NCBI RefSeq assembly: GCF_009734445.1
Contig: NZ_CP046457.1
Span: forward strand, 62,001-126,000
Length of the DNA stretch: 64,000 bases
Source of the DNA: Candidatus Syntrophocurvum alkaliphilum
GTDB lineage: Bacteria > Bacillota > Syntrophomonadia > Syntrophomonadales > Syntrophomonadaceae
Direction: 5' to 3'
Within the stretch, counting starts at the first letter, position 1, and every line of letters begins with the position of its first letter. Position numbers and translations under genes: made by a program. Shown here piece by piece: positions 3,154 to 36,143 of the stretch. Below the pieces are notes generated by a model. It worked only from the letters and a program-made list of their open reading frames with translations. It did not search any database and was not told the DNA's origin.

Positions 3154-4494
3154 ATGAGTTGGTTAGAAGAATATAAGAAAAAACTAGTAAGTGCAGATGA
3201 GGCTGCTAAGGTGGTCAAAACGGGTGATTGGGTAGATTATGGTTGGTGTGTGGGACATTCTTACGATGTTGATAAAGCAATTGCAAATCGAGCATCTGAA
3301 CTTACTGATGTAAAGCTCAGGGGCGGTGTAACCATGTGGATGCCGGCTATCTTTCAGATAGAGAATCCAGAAGCTCATTTTACTTGGAATTCATGGCATT
3401 ATTCTGGGGTTGACCGCAAAATAAATGATATGGGTTGTGGTTACTATGCGCCCATTCGGTATTCTGAAGTTCCTAGGTATTATCGCGAAAACGTAGAACC
3501 TATAGCCGTCGCTATATGTCAAGTGGCTCCGATGGATGAACACGGTTACTTTAATTTTGGTCCCCAGGCCTCCCATCAGATGGCTACATTTGATGTTTCA
3601 ACCATTAAAATTGTAGAGGTTAATAATAATATGCCTCGTTGTTTAGGTGGTACTGAGGTAGGGATCCATATTTCAGAAGTTGATTACATTGTGGAAGGGT
3701 CTAATCCTCCACTGCCCCAACTAGGTTCTGCAGTGCCTTCGGAAGCAGATGAAAAAGTGGCTGCTCTTATTGTTGATGAAATTCCTAATGGTGCATGTTT
3801 GCAATTGGGGATAGGTGGAATGCCTAATGCGGTAGGAATGATGATAGCAAAATCTGATCTTAAAGATTTGGGTGTTCATACTGAAATGTATGTTGATGCC
3901 TTTGTAGATATATCTATGGCGGGTAAAATTACAGGACTGAAGAAAAATATAGATCGTGGTCGTCAATCATTTGCATTCGCAGCAGGAACCAGTAAGCTCT
4001 ATGATTATTTACATAATAATCCTCAAATTATGAGTTGTACTGTTGATTATACTAATGATCCAAGTGTTGTAGGTATGATTGATAATTTTATGTCTATTAA
4101 CAATGCTGTAGAGATAGATCTGTTTGGTCAGGTTAACTCGGAGTCTTCTGGAACCAAACATATTAGTGGTACTGGTGGACAATTGGACTTTGTAATGGGT
4201 GCTTACCGTTCCAAGGGTGGTAAGAGTTTTGTTTGCTTATCCTCAACTTATGGTAAAGCCGGAGAGCCCAAATCTCGTATTGTGCCGACAATGAAGCCCG
4301 GAAGCATTACAACTGATAGCCGTACTGTTGTTCATTGGGTGGTAACTGAATATGGCAAGGTTAATCTGAAAGGCAAATCAACTTGGGAAAGAGCTGAAGC
4401 ATTAATTTCAATTGCTCATCCAGACTTTAGAGATGAGTTAATCCGAGAAGCTGAAAAAATGAAAATTTGGAGAAAGTCCAACAAAATTGTGTAA
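3154..4494 (+). CDS. Butyryl-CoA:acetate CoA-transferase (acetyl-CoA hydrolase/transferase family)
   Basis: This 446-residue enzyme has the length and motifs of the acetyl-CoA hydrolase/transferase family and most resembles butyryl-CoA:acetate CoA-transferases. It would exchange CoA between butyryl-CoA and acetate, the terminal step of butyrate formation or the activation step of butyrate oxidation. The N-terminal [10 protein letters not shown] and HFTWNSWH segments, the [12 protein letters not shown] loop (about 218-228), the GVHTEM segment whose Glu244 is the probable catalytic glutamate by analogy, and GTGGQLDF (339-346) are visible. The ribosome binding site is AGGAGGG. It closes the hbd-thl-acd cluster and ends before a strong hairpin. 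A 4-hydroxybutyrate CoA-transferase role is a less likely alternative. Confidence 0.88.
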
Positions 4495-4532: not shown

Positions 4533-4580
4533 AAGAGCTTGTTGTAGATTTATATCTACAATGAGCTCTTGTTTTGTGTT
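4533..4580. terminator. Hairpin terminator between convergent genes
   Basis: AAGAGCT-GTTGTAGAT (4533-4549) pairs with ATCTACAA-GAGCTCTT (4554-4570), followed by GTTTTGTGTTTT on the plus strand. It separates the CoA-transferase gene from the convergent dynamin-like gene and may serve both strands. Confidence 0.8.
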
Positions 4581-4587
4581 TTGCGTA

Positions 4588-6327
4588 CTACAGTTGTTTG
4601 ATTATCTTACTTTCTTTTTTTAGAGCTTCTTCTAATGTATTAATATCTTTATTAATCTGCTCAATTTGTTGGGTTATTACATTTTCATTCGATTGTTTTT
4701 GCTTTAGAGCAATCTCTAATTGATTATTTATTTCATTTTTAGCTTCTTCAACCATGTTATCCATTAGTAAGTTTAATTCCTTAGAGGATTTTTTTAGACA
4801 TTCTAGAAAATGATGTCTTAAAACTCCGCAATTGCGGTCGACATCAATAGAAATTCTATCTATAAATTCCTTGCGAATTAATGGATTAATGATAAAGCTA
4901 GGTAGTTTACCAGCAAAAGCAGAGGGGGCTGTTTCAATGAAAAGAGGGGATCTACCCACTTTATAATCTACATTACCGCTTGTATTCATAATGGGAACAT
5001 CAATTTGTCCATCCCACTTTAATCCAAACATTTCCGATGCTTTTTTATATATATCTTCAACTAAAGCTTTCAGACGTAGCAGAAAACGTTCTCCTGCTTC
5101 ATTAAAAGTTTTTTCAATCCAGTCAGCGTTTTTTTCACGAAACGGTTTTACTTGATTTAAAACGCTTTCTTCAAGTGCTATATTTAATTCATCAGTTAAC
5201 TTTTTACTACCTTGTTTATGGTAATTGTTATAAATTTCATCTAATTGCGTATTTATTATTGGTATAGTTTTATCTTGAAACTGTTTTACATTATCATCAT
5301 ATTGGTTTAATATATGCCTTACTTCAGCTTGTAATAAATTTTTAGCTTCTCTTTTAGTGACATCAACATTTTCTAAAAAAAGCTCAAAATCTTTAATATT
5401 AGAATTAAGTTTATCTATAGGGGTGATTAGTGTTTCCTTTCTTAAAGTTAATAAATTATATTGATTTTTAGCTATGATGCGCATTCTTGTTTCAATTGAA
5501 TTAATTAAAATTTCATCTTTTCTATTATTTAATTCTTGGTTTAAAAAATCTAAAAGCTTTTGCATACCGCTTTTTTGGTATTCAATTTCATTACCTTGTA
5601 TTTTGGCTTCAAGTCCATCGCGAGCAGATACTGGTATTATAGTAATGTTTTCTCTATTTAGCTTATCTTTTAATACTTTGGCTGAGAAGTTAATTAATAA
5701 ACTTAGTTCCTCTTTATTAACCATATCTAGCTTATTTAGAATAAAAACCGTTGCAGTTTCATTATTTTGTATTTCATTTAAAAAATTTATTTCGGTTTCA
5801 TTTAAAGGTGTATCACTTGAGAATAAAAATAGTACAACATCAATACTTTCTAAAAAATCACGAGCAGTTTCAGTATTATGCTTATATACAGAACCAACTC
5901 CGGGGGTATCATAAAGTTTTATTCCTTTGTTTAACAGAGGATTAGGGTTGTATATGGTAACTAACTTCACTTCTTTTTTATTATCTGGATTTTCTTCTTC
6001 TGAAACATAACTACCTAATTCTTTTAGATTAATTTTTTTTTCTTGTCCATCTTTAAACTCTACTAATCCAAAATTATTATTTCCATATTCAATAGCAGTG
6101 ATAATTGATGTTACAGGAACAACACCTGAAGGTAAAATATTATCACCTAATAATGCATTAATTAAAGTTGATTTACCGCGCTTCATTTGGCCAACTACTG
6201 CAATGTTTAACTGTTTGTTACCAAATTGATTTTGTAAACTTATCAAGCTTTCAATTATTGTGTTACTAAGTGAATATTCTTGAGCAATATTTATTAAAGT
6301 TTCTAGGTTTTTATTAATTTTTTCCAC
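4588..6327 (-). CDS. Bacterial dynamin-like GTPase
   Basis: A 579-residue dynamin-superfamily GTPase. The GTPase domain shows the P-loop GQMKRGKS (46-53), a switch threonine in PVTS (about 71-74), the G3 motif DTPG (140-143) and the G4 motif NKLD (198-201). The rest is mostly helical and coiled coil, with a glycine/proline-containing segment near 440-480 that could be the membrane-contacting paddle. Bacterial dynamin-like proteins remodel or protect membranes; several respond to membrane stress. The GTG start at 6327 follows GGGAGGT. The gene stands alone, and its mRNA leader is a fluoride riboswitch with its own promoter, so expression should rise when fluoride enters the cell. The specific role is inferred. 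Confidence 0.85.
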   Translation of the reverse strand: MEKINKNLETLINIAQEYSLSNTIIESLISLQNQFGNKQLNIAVVGQMKRGKSTLINALLGDNILPSGVVPVTSIITAIEYGNNNFGLVEFKDGQEKKINLKELGSYVSEEENPDNKKEVKLVTIYNPNPLLNKGIKLYDTPGVGSVYKHNTETARDFLESIDVVLFLFSSDTPLNETEINFLNEIQNNETATVFILNKLDMVNKEELSLLINFSAKVLKDKLNRENITIIPVSARDGLEAKIQGNEIEYQKSGMQKLLDFLNQELNNRKDEILINSIETRMRIIAKNQYNLLTLRKETLITPIDKLNSNIKDFELFLENVDVTKREAKNLLQAEVRHILNQYDDNVKQFQDKTIPIINTQLDEIYNNYHKQGSKKLTDELNIALEESVLNQVKPFREKNADWIEKTFNEAGERFLLRLKALVEDIYKKASEMFGLKWDGQIDVPIMNTSGNVDYKVGRSPLFIETAPSAFAGKLPSFIINPLIRKEFIDRISIDVDRNCGVLRHHFLECLKKSSKELNLLMDNMVEEAKNEINNQLEIALKQKQSNENVITQQIEQINKDINTLEEALKKESKIIKQL

Positions 6328-6342
6328 TGTGTTTTACCTCCC

Positions 6343-6442
6343 AAAAAACAAAATAGCTCCTGTCCTAAATTAGACAGGAGCCATTAGCCTTATTATTGTT
6401 AGGCGTTTAAGCGTAAAGCTATGGTGGGCACCATCACCATAT
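6343..6442 (-). promoter_or_regulatory. Fluoride riboswitch (crcB motif) with intrinsic terminator
   Basis: Read on the minus strand, the leader has P1 hairpin GGTGATGGTGCCCACC, then ATA, AACGCC and AGGCTAATGGCTCCTG, matching the crcB/fluoride consensus. The P1 loop GGTGCC can form the family pseudoknot with GGCTCC; compared with my recollection of the Thermotoga version (GGUGUU with AACUCC) both sides change together, which supports the call. The 3' part GCTCCTGTC (ending near 6373) re-pairs with GACAGGAGC (to about 6353) and is followed by TATTTTGTTTTTT, a terminator competing with the pseudoknot. A 12-base insertion lies between P1 and the AACGCC strand. It sits 15 bases before the dynamin-like start codon and in the same direction. 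Confidence 0.92.
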
Positions 6443-6462
6443 ATTTTATTATTCCAATGAAC

Positions 6463-6491
6463 AGTATAGAATAATTTTTTATTTTATACAA
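6463..6491 (-). promoter_or_regulatory. SigA-type promoter of the fluoride riboswitch transcript
   Basis: On the minus strand TTGTAT (6491-6486) and TATACT (6468-6463) are separated by exactly 17 bases. Transcription would begin around 6456, just before the aptamer. This makes the dynamin-like gene an independent unit and not a read-through from the chemoreceptor gene. Confidence 0.7.
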
Positions 6492-8840: not shown

Positions 8841-8890
8841 ACTAAACATTATAAGCATTTTTAACCAATAATTGGGTTAGCTGTAAACTG

Positions 8891-8963
8891 CTGCTCTATG
8901 GTAGTGGAAGTGAATGCCACTTTTCCATTTAAACATAATGTTTTATAAAACATCATGGAGCAG
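8891..8963 (+). ncRNA. Candidate three-way-junction leader RNA
   Basis: Within the predicted leader, CTGCTCTATG (8891-8900) pairs over 10 positions with CATGGAGCAG (8954-8963), including one G-U. Inside are a hairpin TGGAAGTG...CACTTTTCCA (8905-8927, small bulge) and ATGTTT/AAACAT (8938-8953), the latter abutting the closing stem. This is a compact riboswitch-like fold with no RNA family that I recognise. It could also be a protein-binding leader or a mobile-element relic. No terminator immediately follows. Confidence 0.4.
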
Positions 8964-9266
8964 TGGGATCCTTCTTTTGAGCATATAAAATACTAAGCAT
9001 TTATTTAATGTGTTTTTCATATTTAATGAATTCTATCATATATATTTGACTGTATGCTAAAAACTTAAACTGCATCCTATTAGATATAAAGTTTTAGAAA
9101 AAGGGGGGAGCATAATAAAGATATAAAGAATATGAAGGGGGGCATACTTTTCAACACTTTAAAGTAAAAGATTGGCGGGGTTATGATTTTTAAAAACTGA
9201 AAACCAGAGCGATAGAACTTAAAGAGAGACGTGCTTTAAGATAATTTAAGAGGAGGTATAAATAAA

Positions 9267-10118
9267 ATGGCTATAAATAAGATTGGAGTTTTAGGTGCTG
9301 GAACTATGGGGGCTGGCATTGCCCAAGTTTGTGTTGAAGCTGGATATACAGTTGTTTTGGTTGATATAGAGCAAAGTATGGTTGACCAAGGGCTGAAAGG
9401 GATATTTAAAAACTGGGACAAAGCAGTTTCTAAAGGTAAGAAAACTGAGGAAGATGTTGGCAAGTTTAAAGGTTTATTAACCAGTGCTACAGATAATAGT
9501 AATTTTAAAGATTGTGATATTGTAATCGAAGCAATTATAGAAAATATTGATATTAAGAAAAAAGTGATGAAAGGATTAGACGAGTTATGTAAAGCTGATA
9601 CCATTTTGGCGACAAATACATCAGCTCTAAGTATAACGGAAATTGCGGCCTCAACTAATCGCCCTGATAAAGTTGTCGGTATGCACTTCTTTAATCCGGT
9701 TACAGCTATGAAATTAGTTGAAGTTATACCTGGTGCAGAAACTTCTGAAGCAGTTGTTAATACAGTTGTTGAATTAAGCAACAACATTCGCAAAGAACCA
9801 GTGCCGGTTCAAGAATCACCTGGATTTATAGTTAATAGAGTATTAATTCCTTATATAAATGAAGCTGCAATTCTTTATCAAGAAGGTGCTGCTTCTGCTG
9901 AAGAAATTGATAAGGCGATGAAATTAGGAGCTAACATGCCTATGGGACCACTAGCTTTAGCAGACTTAATTGGTATAGATGTATGTTTGATGATTATGAA
10001 CTATTTCTGGAATGAATTTGGTGACTCCAAATATCGTCCTGCATTGTCACTTAAGCAAAAAGAAAGAGCTGGTCATTTAGGTAGAAAAACAGGCAAAGGA
10101 TTCTTTGATTACAATTAA
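9267..10118 (+). CDS. hbd: 3-hydroxyacyl-CoA (3-hydroxybutyryl-CoA) dehydrogenase, copy 2
   Basis: This complete 283-residue NAD-dependent dehydrogenase has the usual family length. The N-terminal Rossmann fold carries GVLGAGTMGAGIAQ (about 8-21); the NTSALSITE and MHFFNPV segments follow, then the C-terminal dimerisation domain. The ATG at 9267 follows GAGGAGGT. It oxidises 3-hydroxybutyryl-CoA or works in reverse. Bases 9425 to about 10111 are essentially identical to 1-687 of the window. In this copy thl does not follow; a short unrelated spacer leads to acd. A sigma-54 promoter at 8824 probably drives it. Confidence 0.96.
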   Translation: MAINKIGVLGAGTMGAGIAQVCVEAGYTVVLVDIEQSMVDQGLKGIFKNWDKAVSKGKKTEEDVGKFKGLLTSATDNSNFKDCDIVIEAIIENIDIKKKVMKGLDELCKADTILATNTSALSITEIAASTNRPDKVVGMHFFNPVTAMKLVEVIPGAETSEAVVNTVVELSNNIRKEPVPVQESPGFIVNRVLIPYINEAAILYQEGAASAEEIDKAMKLGANMPMGPLALADLIGIDVCLMIMNYFWNEFGDSKYRPALSLKQKERAGHLGRKTGKGFFDYN

Positions 10119-10296
10119 GATCTAAAATGTGCTAGCGCCTAGAAAGTGCGGATACCTGCGGTATTGTTATAATGATAATTGAACTATAAAAATAAAGTGG
10201 AATTTTATATATTGGATAAAACTATTTTCTGCATCTGTGGGGAAGACATAGCTGTAATTATTATTTAGATAAACAAAAAATGAGGAGGATTTATAA
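10119..10296 (+). other. Spacer replacing thl between the second hbd and acd copies
   Basis: In the first cluster thl fills this position. Here there are about 145 bases of unrelated AT-rich sequence with no credible gene. Homology to cluster 1 stops at the end of hbd and resumes at TAGATAAACA, which in cluster 1 is the very end of thl. The leftover thl stop region shows that thl was once present or that the acd copy was acquired with its flank. Confidence 0.7.
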
Positions 10297-11439
10297 ATGA
10301 ATTTTAGATTATCAGAAGAACATGAAATGTTTAGAAAAACATTTAGAGATTTTGCAGAAGGAGAAATAGAACCATCAGCTGCTGAACGTGATGAAGAAGA
10401 AAGATTTGATATGGATCTATTCCGCAAAATGGCTGATTTAGGCATGTGTGGATTACCGTGGGGAGAAGAGTACGGAGGAGTAGGATCTGACTTTCTAACT
10501 TATGTATTAGCGGTAGAAGAGCTTTCAAGAGTTTGCGGTTCTATGGGTGTTACTTTATCAGCTCACGTATCACTAGCTTCATGGCCAATTTGGAAATTTG
10601 GTACAGAAGAACAGAAACAAAAATATCTAGTGCCATTAGCTGAAGGGACTAAAATGGGGGCATTTGCAATTACTGAACCAACGGCTGGTAGTGATGCAGG
10701 TGGAACAAAAACAACTGCAGTACTAGATGGTGATGAATATGTCTTAAATGGAACCAAAGTATTTATAACAAATGCTTATTATGCTGAAACTTATGTTGTA
10801 ATAGCTAGGACAGGACCTAAGGATCTTGGACATAAGAGTATAAGTGCATTTATAGTTGAAAAAGATACTCCTGGCTTTAGCTTTGGTAAAAAAGAGGATA
10901 AGCTAGGTATAAGATCATCAGCTACCTATGAGTTAGTATTCGAAAACTGCCGCATTCCAAAGGAAAACCTTCTTGGTAAAGAAGGAGATGGATTTAAAAT
11001 TGGTATGATGATCCTAGATGGTGGAAGAAACGGAATTGCTGCTCAAGCAGTTGGAATAGCTCAAGGAGCATATGAATTTGCACTTAACTATTCAAAAGAT
11101 AGAGTTCAATTTGGAAAACCAATATCTAAACAACAGGCTATCCAATTCAAATTAGCTGATATGGCAACACAAATAGAAGCTGCAAGATTATTAACCTATC
11201 AAGCGGCTTGGTTAGAAAGTCAAGGATTGCCATATGGTAAAGAAAGTGCAATGGCAAAACTGTACGCGGGTGATGCTGCAATGGCAGTAACAACAGAAGC
11301 AGTACAGGTATTAGGAGGATATGGTTATTCTAGAGAATATCCAGTTGAAAGAATGATGAGAGATGCTAAGATTACACAAATTTATGAAGGTACAAATGAA
11401 ATTCAACGTGTAGTTATAGCAAGCAATATTTTGAAATAA
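10297..11439 (+). CDS. Acyl-CoA dehydrogenase (short-chain), copy 2
   Basis: A 380-residue FAD-dependent acyl-CoA dehydrogenase, the near-identical partner of 1941-3083. It has the same [14 protein letters not shown] segment and catalytic Glu364 in [11 protein letters not shown]. The one residue difference seen is Glu in YGKESAMAK. Base differences cluster in the last 200 bases and in the final three codons; most of the gene is identical including synonymous positions. A GAGGAGG site precedes the ATG. It is the last gene of the second cluster and ends before a strong hairpin. Confidence 0.93.
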
Positions 11440-35815: not shown

Positions 35816-36004
35816 AAGCTTTTAACCTCCCTTCTATTCAATTTTATTAAAAGAGAATACAATATCCTCCTTCCTACAATGTTTAATTATTTACTATAAT
35901 ATATTCGTTCTATATAAAAAAAATCCTTTTAATCTGTGAAAAATTTTGCAAAATATTAATTTATGTTAAAATATTATTTGATTATAACATATAAATTATA
36001 AAAA

Positions 36005-36094
36005 GCTAGGGGAGCTTTATTAAACCGAAGCTGAGAAAGAAGTGGAAACTTCTGACCCTAATACCTGAACTGGGTAATTCCAGCGTAGGGAAGC
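36005..36094 (+). promoter_or_regulatory. TPP riboswitch (THI element)
   Basis: The conserved blocks AGGGGAGC, GCTGAGA, CTGACCC, ACCTGA, GGGTAAT and CCAGCGTAGGGAAGC appear in the right order. It precedes thiD-thiM-thiE and should shut the operon off when thiamine pyrophosphate is plentiful, through the adjacent terminator. Confidence 0.97.
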
Positions 36095-36104
36095 AAAATC
36101 TGTT

Positions 36105-36143
36105 ATTAAGTGAACAGCTTTGCTTGTTCACTTAATGTTTTTT
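36105..36143 (+). terminator. Riboswitch-controlled terminator
   Basis: ATTAAGTGAACA (36105-36116) pairs exactly with TGTTCACTTAAT (36125-36136), followed by GTTTTTT. It lies 10 bases after the TPP aptamer and upstream of thiD. Confidence 0.9.

Follow-up and report, generated by a model that had tools for sequence, protein, structure and literature searches.

The fluoride riboswitch (crcB motif, RF01734) is known to control genes for an exporter, an antiporter, enolase, pyrophosphatase and MutS. The main text of the motif's first report mentioned mutS, K+/Cl- transport and formate hydrogen lyase (PMC2864571). Neither dynamins nor GTPases appear among the riboswitch-linked genes given in a review, which include antiporters, enolase, pyrophosphatase and formate hydrogen lyase (PMC11139923). 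In the transcriptional members of the class, bound fluoride stops a terminator from breaking the aptamer pseudoknot (PMC11077080). Fluoride enters the cell as HF, reduces the internal pH and the proton-motive force, and disturbs divalent metals (PMC11139923).

Bacterial dynamins are widespread, but what induces them and what they are for is known in only a few cases. DynA of Bacillus subtilis, a protein of about 1,200 residues made of two fused dynamin halves, has a part in the surveillance of stressed membranes, which it protects, and is recruited to membranes that have been damaged (PMC8844932). Mycobacterial IniA, a single GTPase with a helical bundle, is under the control of envelope-damage regulators. 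It is also a stress-induced dynamin. Others, such as C. jejuni DLP1/2 and LeoABC, come as pairs.

The window analyzed here, a 64,000-nucleotide stretch of the Candidatus Syntrophocurvum alkaliphilum genome (NZ_CP046457.1, positions 62,001 to 126,000), contains a riboswitch with the aptamer sequence, P1, P3, pseudoknot and pseudoknot-overlapping terminator of RF01734, but its target, unlike those listed above, is a dynamin-like GTPase.

The riboswitch and its GTPase gene

The aptamer (6368-6447, minus strand, as are all elements of this leader) was identified by cmscan with a score of 47.4 bits (E 5e-10), 13 bits over the gathering score of 34, and spans the full RF01734 model, positions 1-64. 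A covariance model built from 50 aptamers, designated R1, whose training sequences include the window aptamer itself, detected it again at 43.7 bits. P1 and P3 are complete and five of the six pseudoknot pairs can form. The third pair, which is A-U or G-U in the other 49 aligned aptamers, is U-U instead of the usual pair, the sole unpaired cell at that position in the alignment. The related aptamers L010 and L019 also have U at the same position and L007 has C, which suggests that U-U is a tolerated variant rather than a sign of decay; the fluoride affinity of the window aptamer is untested.

Terminator scanning and folding located an intrinsic terminator at 6385-6352, consisting of a 14-pair stem followed by a T-rich tail. 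The 5' arm of the stem contains GGCTCC, which forms the 3' side of the aptamer pseudoknot, so that the terminator and the pseudoknot are mutually exclusive. The start codon lies about 25 nt beyond the hairpin and is preceded at a distance of 9 nt by a ribosome-binding site, GGGAGG (6337-6342). Upstream of the aptamer there is a good candidate -10 box, TATACT (6463-6468), separated by a 17-nt spacer from a candidate -35 box, TTGTAT (6486-6491). Only 3 of 6 bases of this -35 box agree with the consensus and the scan, at its threshold, did not report it, so this part of the promoter assignment is weak. The start codon follows the terminator too closely to leave space for a promoter, and any promoter upstream of the aptamer would include the aptamer in the mRNA. 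Considered with the published mechanism (PMC11077080), this layout predicts induction by fluoride; both fluoride binding and the change in expression are inferred. An earlier note, made from the sequence alone, had proposed a complete fluoride riboswitch with its own SigA promoter and terminator ahead of a single-gene unit for a dynamin-like GTPase. The riboswitch, for which the Infernal match was significant, the terminator and, as described below, the identity of the GTPase and the single-gene unit were upheld, the promoter only in part.

The GTPase gene (4588-6327, minus strand) starts with GTG at 6327 and has an intact reading frame of 579 codons. The protein matches Pfam Dynamin_N (PF00350) with 115.9 bits against a cut-off of 27. 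The gene beyond it (3154-4494) has the opposite orientation, and a terminator-like hairpin of 17 pairs between the two convergent genes (4533-4570), found by terminator scan, closes the single-gene unit. An alignment of 18 relatives showed that the nucleotide-binding motifs, G1 (GQMKRGKST), G3 (DTPGVGS..HNT) and G4 (NKLD), are intact and that their residues are conserved across the relatives. The motif beside G3, DTPGxGS...(H/N)NT, is highly conserved in the subfamily, as is an E..NPxN motif, whereas control dynamins lack the subfamily G3 motif and read DTPGxND or otherwise.

The AlphaFold model (pLDDT 83.7, pTM 0.66) predicted a G domain on long helices, the neck and trunk comprising residues 255-544. 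IniA and BDLP took the top ranks in Foldseek, with IniA (6j72) the best full-length match. VIA-align gave mitofusin 1 a Z score of 29.4 over 333 residues, IniA 25.9 over 512 residues (16% identity, same overall fold) and BDLP 20-22 as a full-length match, with large rmsd values that leave the domain angles uncertain. At about 16% identity the fold match with IniA does not establish orthology, and the two genes differ in their control, the window gene lying behind a fluoride riboswitch rather than under envelope-damage regulators. DynA is likewise a bacterial dynamin, but a fusion of two dynamin halves, and the window protein scores 60.3 bits on the DynA equivalog, NF052648, far from the cut-off of 1,600; indeed no NCBIfam equivalog reaches its own cut-off for this protein. 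The LeoA/HP0731-type dynamin family, NF041922, did not match it at E 1e-5 or better and matched five of the 18 relatives weakly. The paired dynamins have a homologous G domain and neck, whereas members of the subfamily described here are usually single genes tied to fluoride. A defence-gene label was rejected, as PADLOC yielded only weak LeoA/LeoBC cross-matches.

The G domain and the helical neck and trunk place the window protein among the bacterial dynamin-like proteins. That it hydrolyzes GTP and self-assembles on lipid is inferred. The tip region (approximately residues 430-490), which carries a conserved proline (P476 in the window protein), is the most hydrophobic segment after the GTPase domain in only 61 of 105 members and is not a transmembrane helix. 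It is also the low-confidence part of the model, which leaves membrane contact as an inference from the dynamin family, without lipid-binding data.

A genome-wide search showed that the window copy is the sole fluoride riboswitch in the 2.36-Mb single-contig genome. The earlier note's statement that no exporter gene is present at this locus was confirmed. Elsewhere in the genome, at a distance of about 17 kb, there is a CrcB gene accompanied by a DUF190-like partner. No aptamer was found at the CrcB operon, and no CLC homologue was found in the genome. Consequently, the only gene in this genome controlled by the switch is the GTPase and not an exporter. Two other features of the region were observed. 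The dynamin gene, together with chemoreceptor genes, is flanked by near-identical (95-99%) copies of beta-oxidation genes for 3-hydroxyacyl-CoA dehydrogenase and acyl-CoA dehydrogenase (1-694 and 8887-10118; 1911-2144 and 10266-10500), and a TPP riboswitch (69.5 bits) is located at 35998-36108 on the plus strand.

Recurrence of the pairing in other genomes

The association was surveyed in both directions. Proceeding from aptamers to genes, dynamin-like genes were found downstream of fluoride aptamers in five of 63 genomes of the order: the window genome, G062 (twice), G059, and G012 and G056, where the loci are chimeric or broken. At the level of the phylum, 154 of 398 genomes have the aptamer, and 123 aptamers from these 398 genomes had downstream sequence that was examined. 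The subfamily GTPase is the first gene behind 13 of the 123, two of them truncated or degenerate, and lies further along the same strand or operon for about nine more, where the intervening genes encode DUF6062 proteins, Na+/H+ antiporters and UspA. With roughly 0.1 of these genes in each genome, chance alone would by our estimate account for well under one of the 123. The count is a lower bound, because about 30 loci reach only 1.5 kb downstream.

Several candidates were set aside. The dynamin profile for this survey was built without a dynamin-enolase chimera of G012, and with that profile the gene at G170:627908 proved to be enolase rather than dynamin. L006 (G061) was not counted as direct, its plus-strand aptamer being divergent from the dynamin, and class-level aptamer matches at L016-L018 (22-28 bits) were disregarded as lying inside or over coding sequence. 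In G012, G056 and G313 the riboswitch is followed by part of a dynamin fused to or adjoining an enolase that lacks its N-terminus (L031:3454-4854, L030:1035-2677, L072:2600-4462). These loci may be assembly chimeras, or possibly the product of recurrent recombination between two riboswitch-controlled genes.

In the reverse direction, 80 loci were retrieved from species-representative genomes by protein similarity alone, with an alignment of 18 GTPases as the query, and the 78 with upstream sequence were searched for the aptamer with a covariance model. Of these, 45 had the aptamer within 400 nt upstream, 13 had it at a greater upstream distance but on the same strand, one had it elsewhere and 19 had none. 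Sub-threshold matches in the correct place occur at L156, L178 and L212, which belong to the last group, and at L231 of the phylum set. Judged by record title, the directly linked loci, many of them from metagenome assemblies, cover at least eight phyla, with representatives in Nitrospirae, Deltaproteobacteria, Planctomycetes, KSB1, Calditrichaeota, Acidobacteria, Actinobacteria and Bacillota. Isolates with this arrangement include Desulfovirgula thermocuniculi DSM 16036 (L170) and Thermobrachium celere DSM 8682 (L220). One contig labelled as a Micrarchaeota archaeon (L219) also has a subfamily GTPase with an upstream aptamer, and either an archaeal host or bacterial contamination could account for it.

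Most sequences in the query alignment came from loci linked to the riboswitch, and retrieval was thereby bound to yield the subfamily. The question put to the data was whether this subfamily differs from its cousins in riboswitch linkage. The flanks of 20 loci with other bacterial dynamins (207 kb) contained no aptamer, the best score being 15.7 bits, and in the phylum sample a clear gap separated the subfamily (more than 340 bits, full length) from other dynamins (less than 250 bits). Within the surveyed loci, that subfamily is riboswitch-linked, unlike its cousins. In a FastTree phylogeny of 138 proteins, where L154 and L227 are the same protein, all riboswitch-linked members fell in one group of 118 rows with the control dynamins outside. 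The group comprises 61 direct and 29 operonic members, 25 without an aptamer and three without upstream sequence; about 20% of the subfamily have no aptamer nearby. Since SH-like support for the key branch is only 82%, and long branches are numerous, it is described here as a grouping rather than a proven clade. A single-genome accident can be rejected, as the pairing recurs in both directions of the survey, and so can a trait of dynamins in general, in view of the aptamer-free control loci. The survey that the earlier note had called for shows a recurrent pairing, specific to a single dynamin subfamily.

A hairpin followed by a T-rich stretch occurs within 70 nt in 47 of 54 direct leaders, and in 40 of the 54 the terminator hairpin begins within the last 24 nt of the aptamer. 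Because terminator and aptamer overlap in most of these leaders, the gene should be induced by fluoride, an inference from their architecture. Some delta-proteobacterial leaders have no T-run and may possibly act on translation, which is also inferred.

In the named loci, the neighboring genes encode MFS transporters, HEAT-repeat zinc-ribbon proteins, Na+/H+ exchangers, universal stress proteins (Usp), MoxR ATPases, enolase, MutS and DUF190. Among these, the Na+/H+ exchanger, Usp, enolase, MutS, DUF190 and also MFS genes are known members of the fluoride regulon. Other families were observed repeatedly. At six loci the fluoride riboswitch is followed first by the gene for a DUF6062 protein with CxxC-type cysteines, which lies directly before the dynamin in L091 (L091:3788-4438), L102 and L109 and before an Na+/H+ antiporter and the dynamin in L084, L106 and L113; it is possibly another fluoride-response family. 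Small proteins with both a zinc ribbon and HEAT repeats recur beside fluoride-linked dynamins and also behind fluoride riboswitches of their own (L138:598-1065, L166:6647-7027, L190:6732-7145, L114), and MoxR-type AAA ATPases are found after the dynamin or directly behind a fluoride riboswitch (L061:1900-2853, L154:6792-7757, L172). L154 and L190 are fluoride islands with three or four aptamers, some divergent, in about 4-5 kb.

Possible functions of the GTPase

The reading that we favor, with a probability of roughly 0.6, is that the window gene encodes a fluoride-inducible, membrane-maintenance GTPase representative of a widespread fluoride-stress subfamily. The sequence establishes 1) the aptamer, 2) the overlapping terminator, 3) the adjacency of switch and gene, 4) the recurrence of the pairing, 5) the intact GTPase motifs and 6) the predicted fold. 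ON-switch behavior in this genome, membrane binding and membrane maintenance as the benefit are inferred, in the absence of expression or phenotype data. In the proposed scheme, the leader would fold the terminator and halt transcription when fluoride is absent; with fluoride and Mg2+ bound, the pseudoknot would be held, the terminator blocked and the GTPase gene transcribed. The GTPase would then accumulate and assemble on the cytoplasmic membrane by means of its G domain and long helical neck and trunk, where it may tether, seal or remodel lipid while HF and fluoride upset the proton gradient, pH and divalent metals, acting alongside the Na+/H+ antiporter, exporter and enolase arms of the fluoride regulon. 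Action at the membrane is likely, by analogy with DynA. Points against this reading are the U-U in the window pseudoknot, a tip that is modelled with low confidence and is the most hydrophobic segment in little more than half of the members, and the subfamily members that have no aptamer nearby.

The main rival, which we consider unlikely, is dosage compensation, in which a housekeeping GTPase is blocked by fluoro-metal mimics of the transition state (GDP with AlF4- or MgF3-) and the switch raises its amount. Both enolase and pyrophosphatase are fluoride-inhibited enzymes and known riboswitch targets (PMC11139923), and structures of dynamin-type GTPases with GDP.AlF4- exist (human Dlp1, 3w6p; Vps1, 6djq). 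The presence of fluoride-sensitive enolase under the same regulation favors this rival over the membrane reading. However, even with a generous cut only 71 of 398 genomes have a subfamily member, a patchier distribution than a housekeeping enzyme would show. Moreover, no fluoride switch was present near any of the other bacterial dynamins examined, and yet fluoride sensitivity would be expected of their G domains to the same degree. Membrane protection and compensation for fluoro-metal inhibition had both been suggested in the earlier note, and the sequence evidence decides neither.

Less probable still is a fluoride-dependent effector, in which binding of fluoride and metal locks the GTPase in its assembled state on the membrane, so that fluoride both induces and activates the protein. 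The same fluoro-metal/GDP structural logic supports it, as do the subfamily-specific DTPGxGS...NT motif next to G3 and the E..NPxN motif, but there is no direct evidence and conserved motifs near a nucleotide site can have many roles. That the switch is a relic in this genome or serves a neighboring gene, as the U-U in the pseudoknot and the weak -35 box might suggest, is very unlikely given a complete aptamer well over the cut-off, an intact terminator closely followed by the start codon, an intact frame and no other gene in the unit.

A bolder form of the membrane-maintenance reading holds that the dynamin subfamily, present in eight or more phyla, evolved as a dedicated fluoride-response protein, contributing either membrane maintenance or a fluoride-locked GTPase action at the membrane. 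We consider it slightly more likely than not.

Significance for fluoride defence

In the literature searched, which excluded supplements, subscription papers and preprints, no paper contained both 'fluoride riboswitch' and 'dynamin', none combined 'fluoride', 'riboswitch' and 'COG0699', and co-mentions of 'crcb' and 'dynamin' belonged to eukaryotic cell biology. This is consistent with the earlier note, which knew of no description of the pairing; because the excluded material includes the supplement of Baker 2012 (PMC4140402), priority is not established.

The occurrence of the fluoride riboswitch-dynamin pairing across many phyla likely represents a little-noticed arm of fluoride defence, probably related to the membrane, a role that is inferred. 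It adds a recurrent target to the fluoride super-regulon, one tied to export, antiporter and enolase genes, and may be of use in strains for organofluorine bioremediation. For the dynamins, a subfamily that is wired to the riboswitch in most genomes examined offers an inducer that is both precise and cheap and, in addition, a specific hypothesis, that fluoride or HF harms membranes enough to require a dedicated remodeler or that fluoro-metal complexes act on the GTPase directly. If the bolder reading is true, membrane maintenance, or fluoride-locked GTPase action, would join export, proton balance and enzyme dosage.
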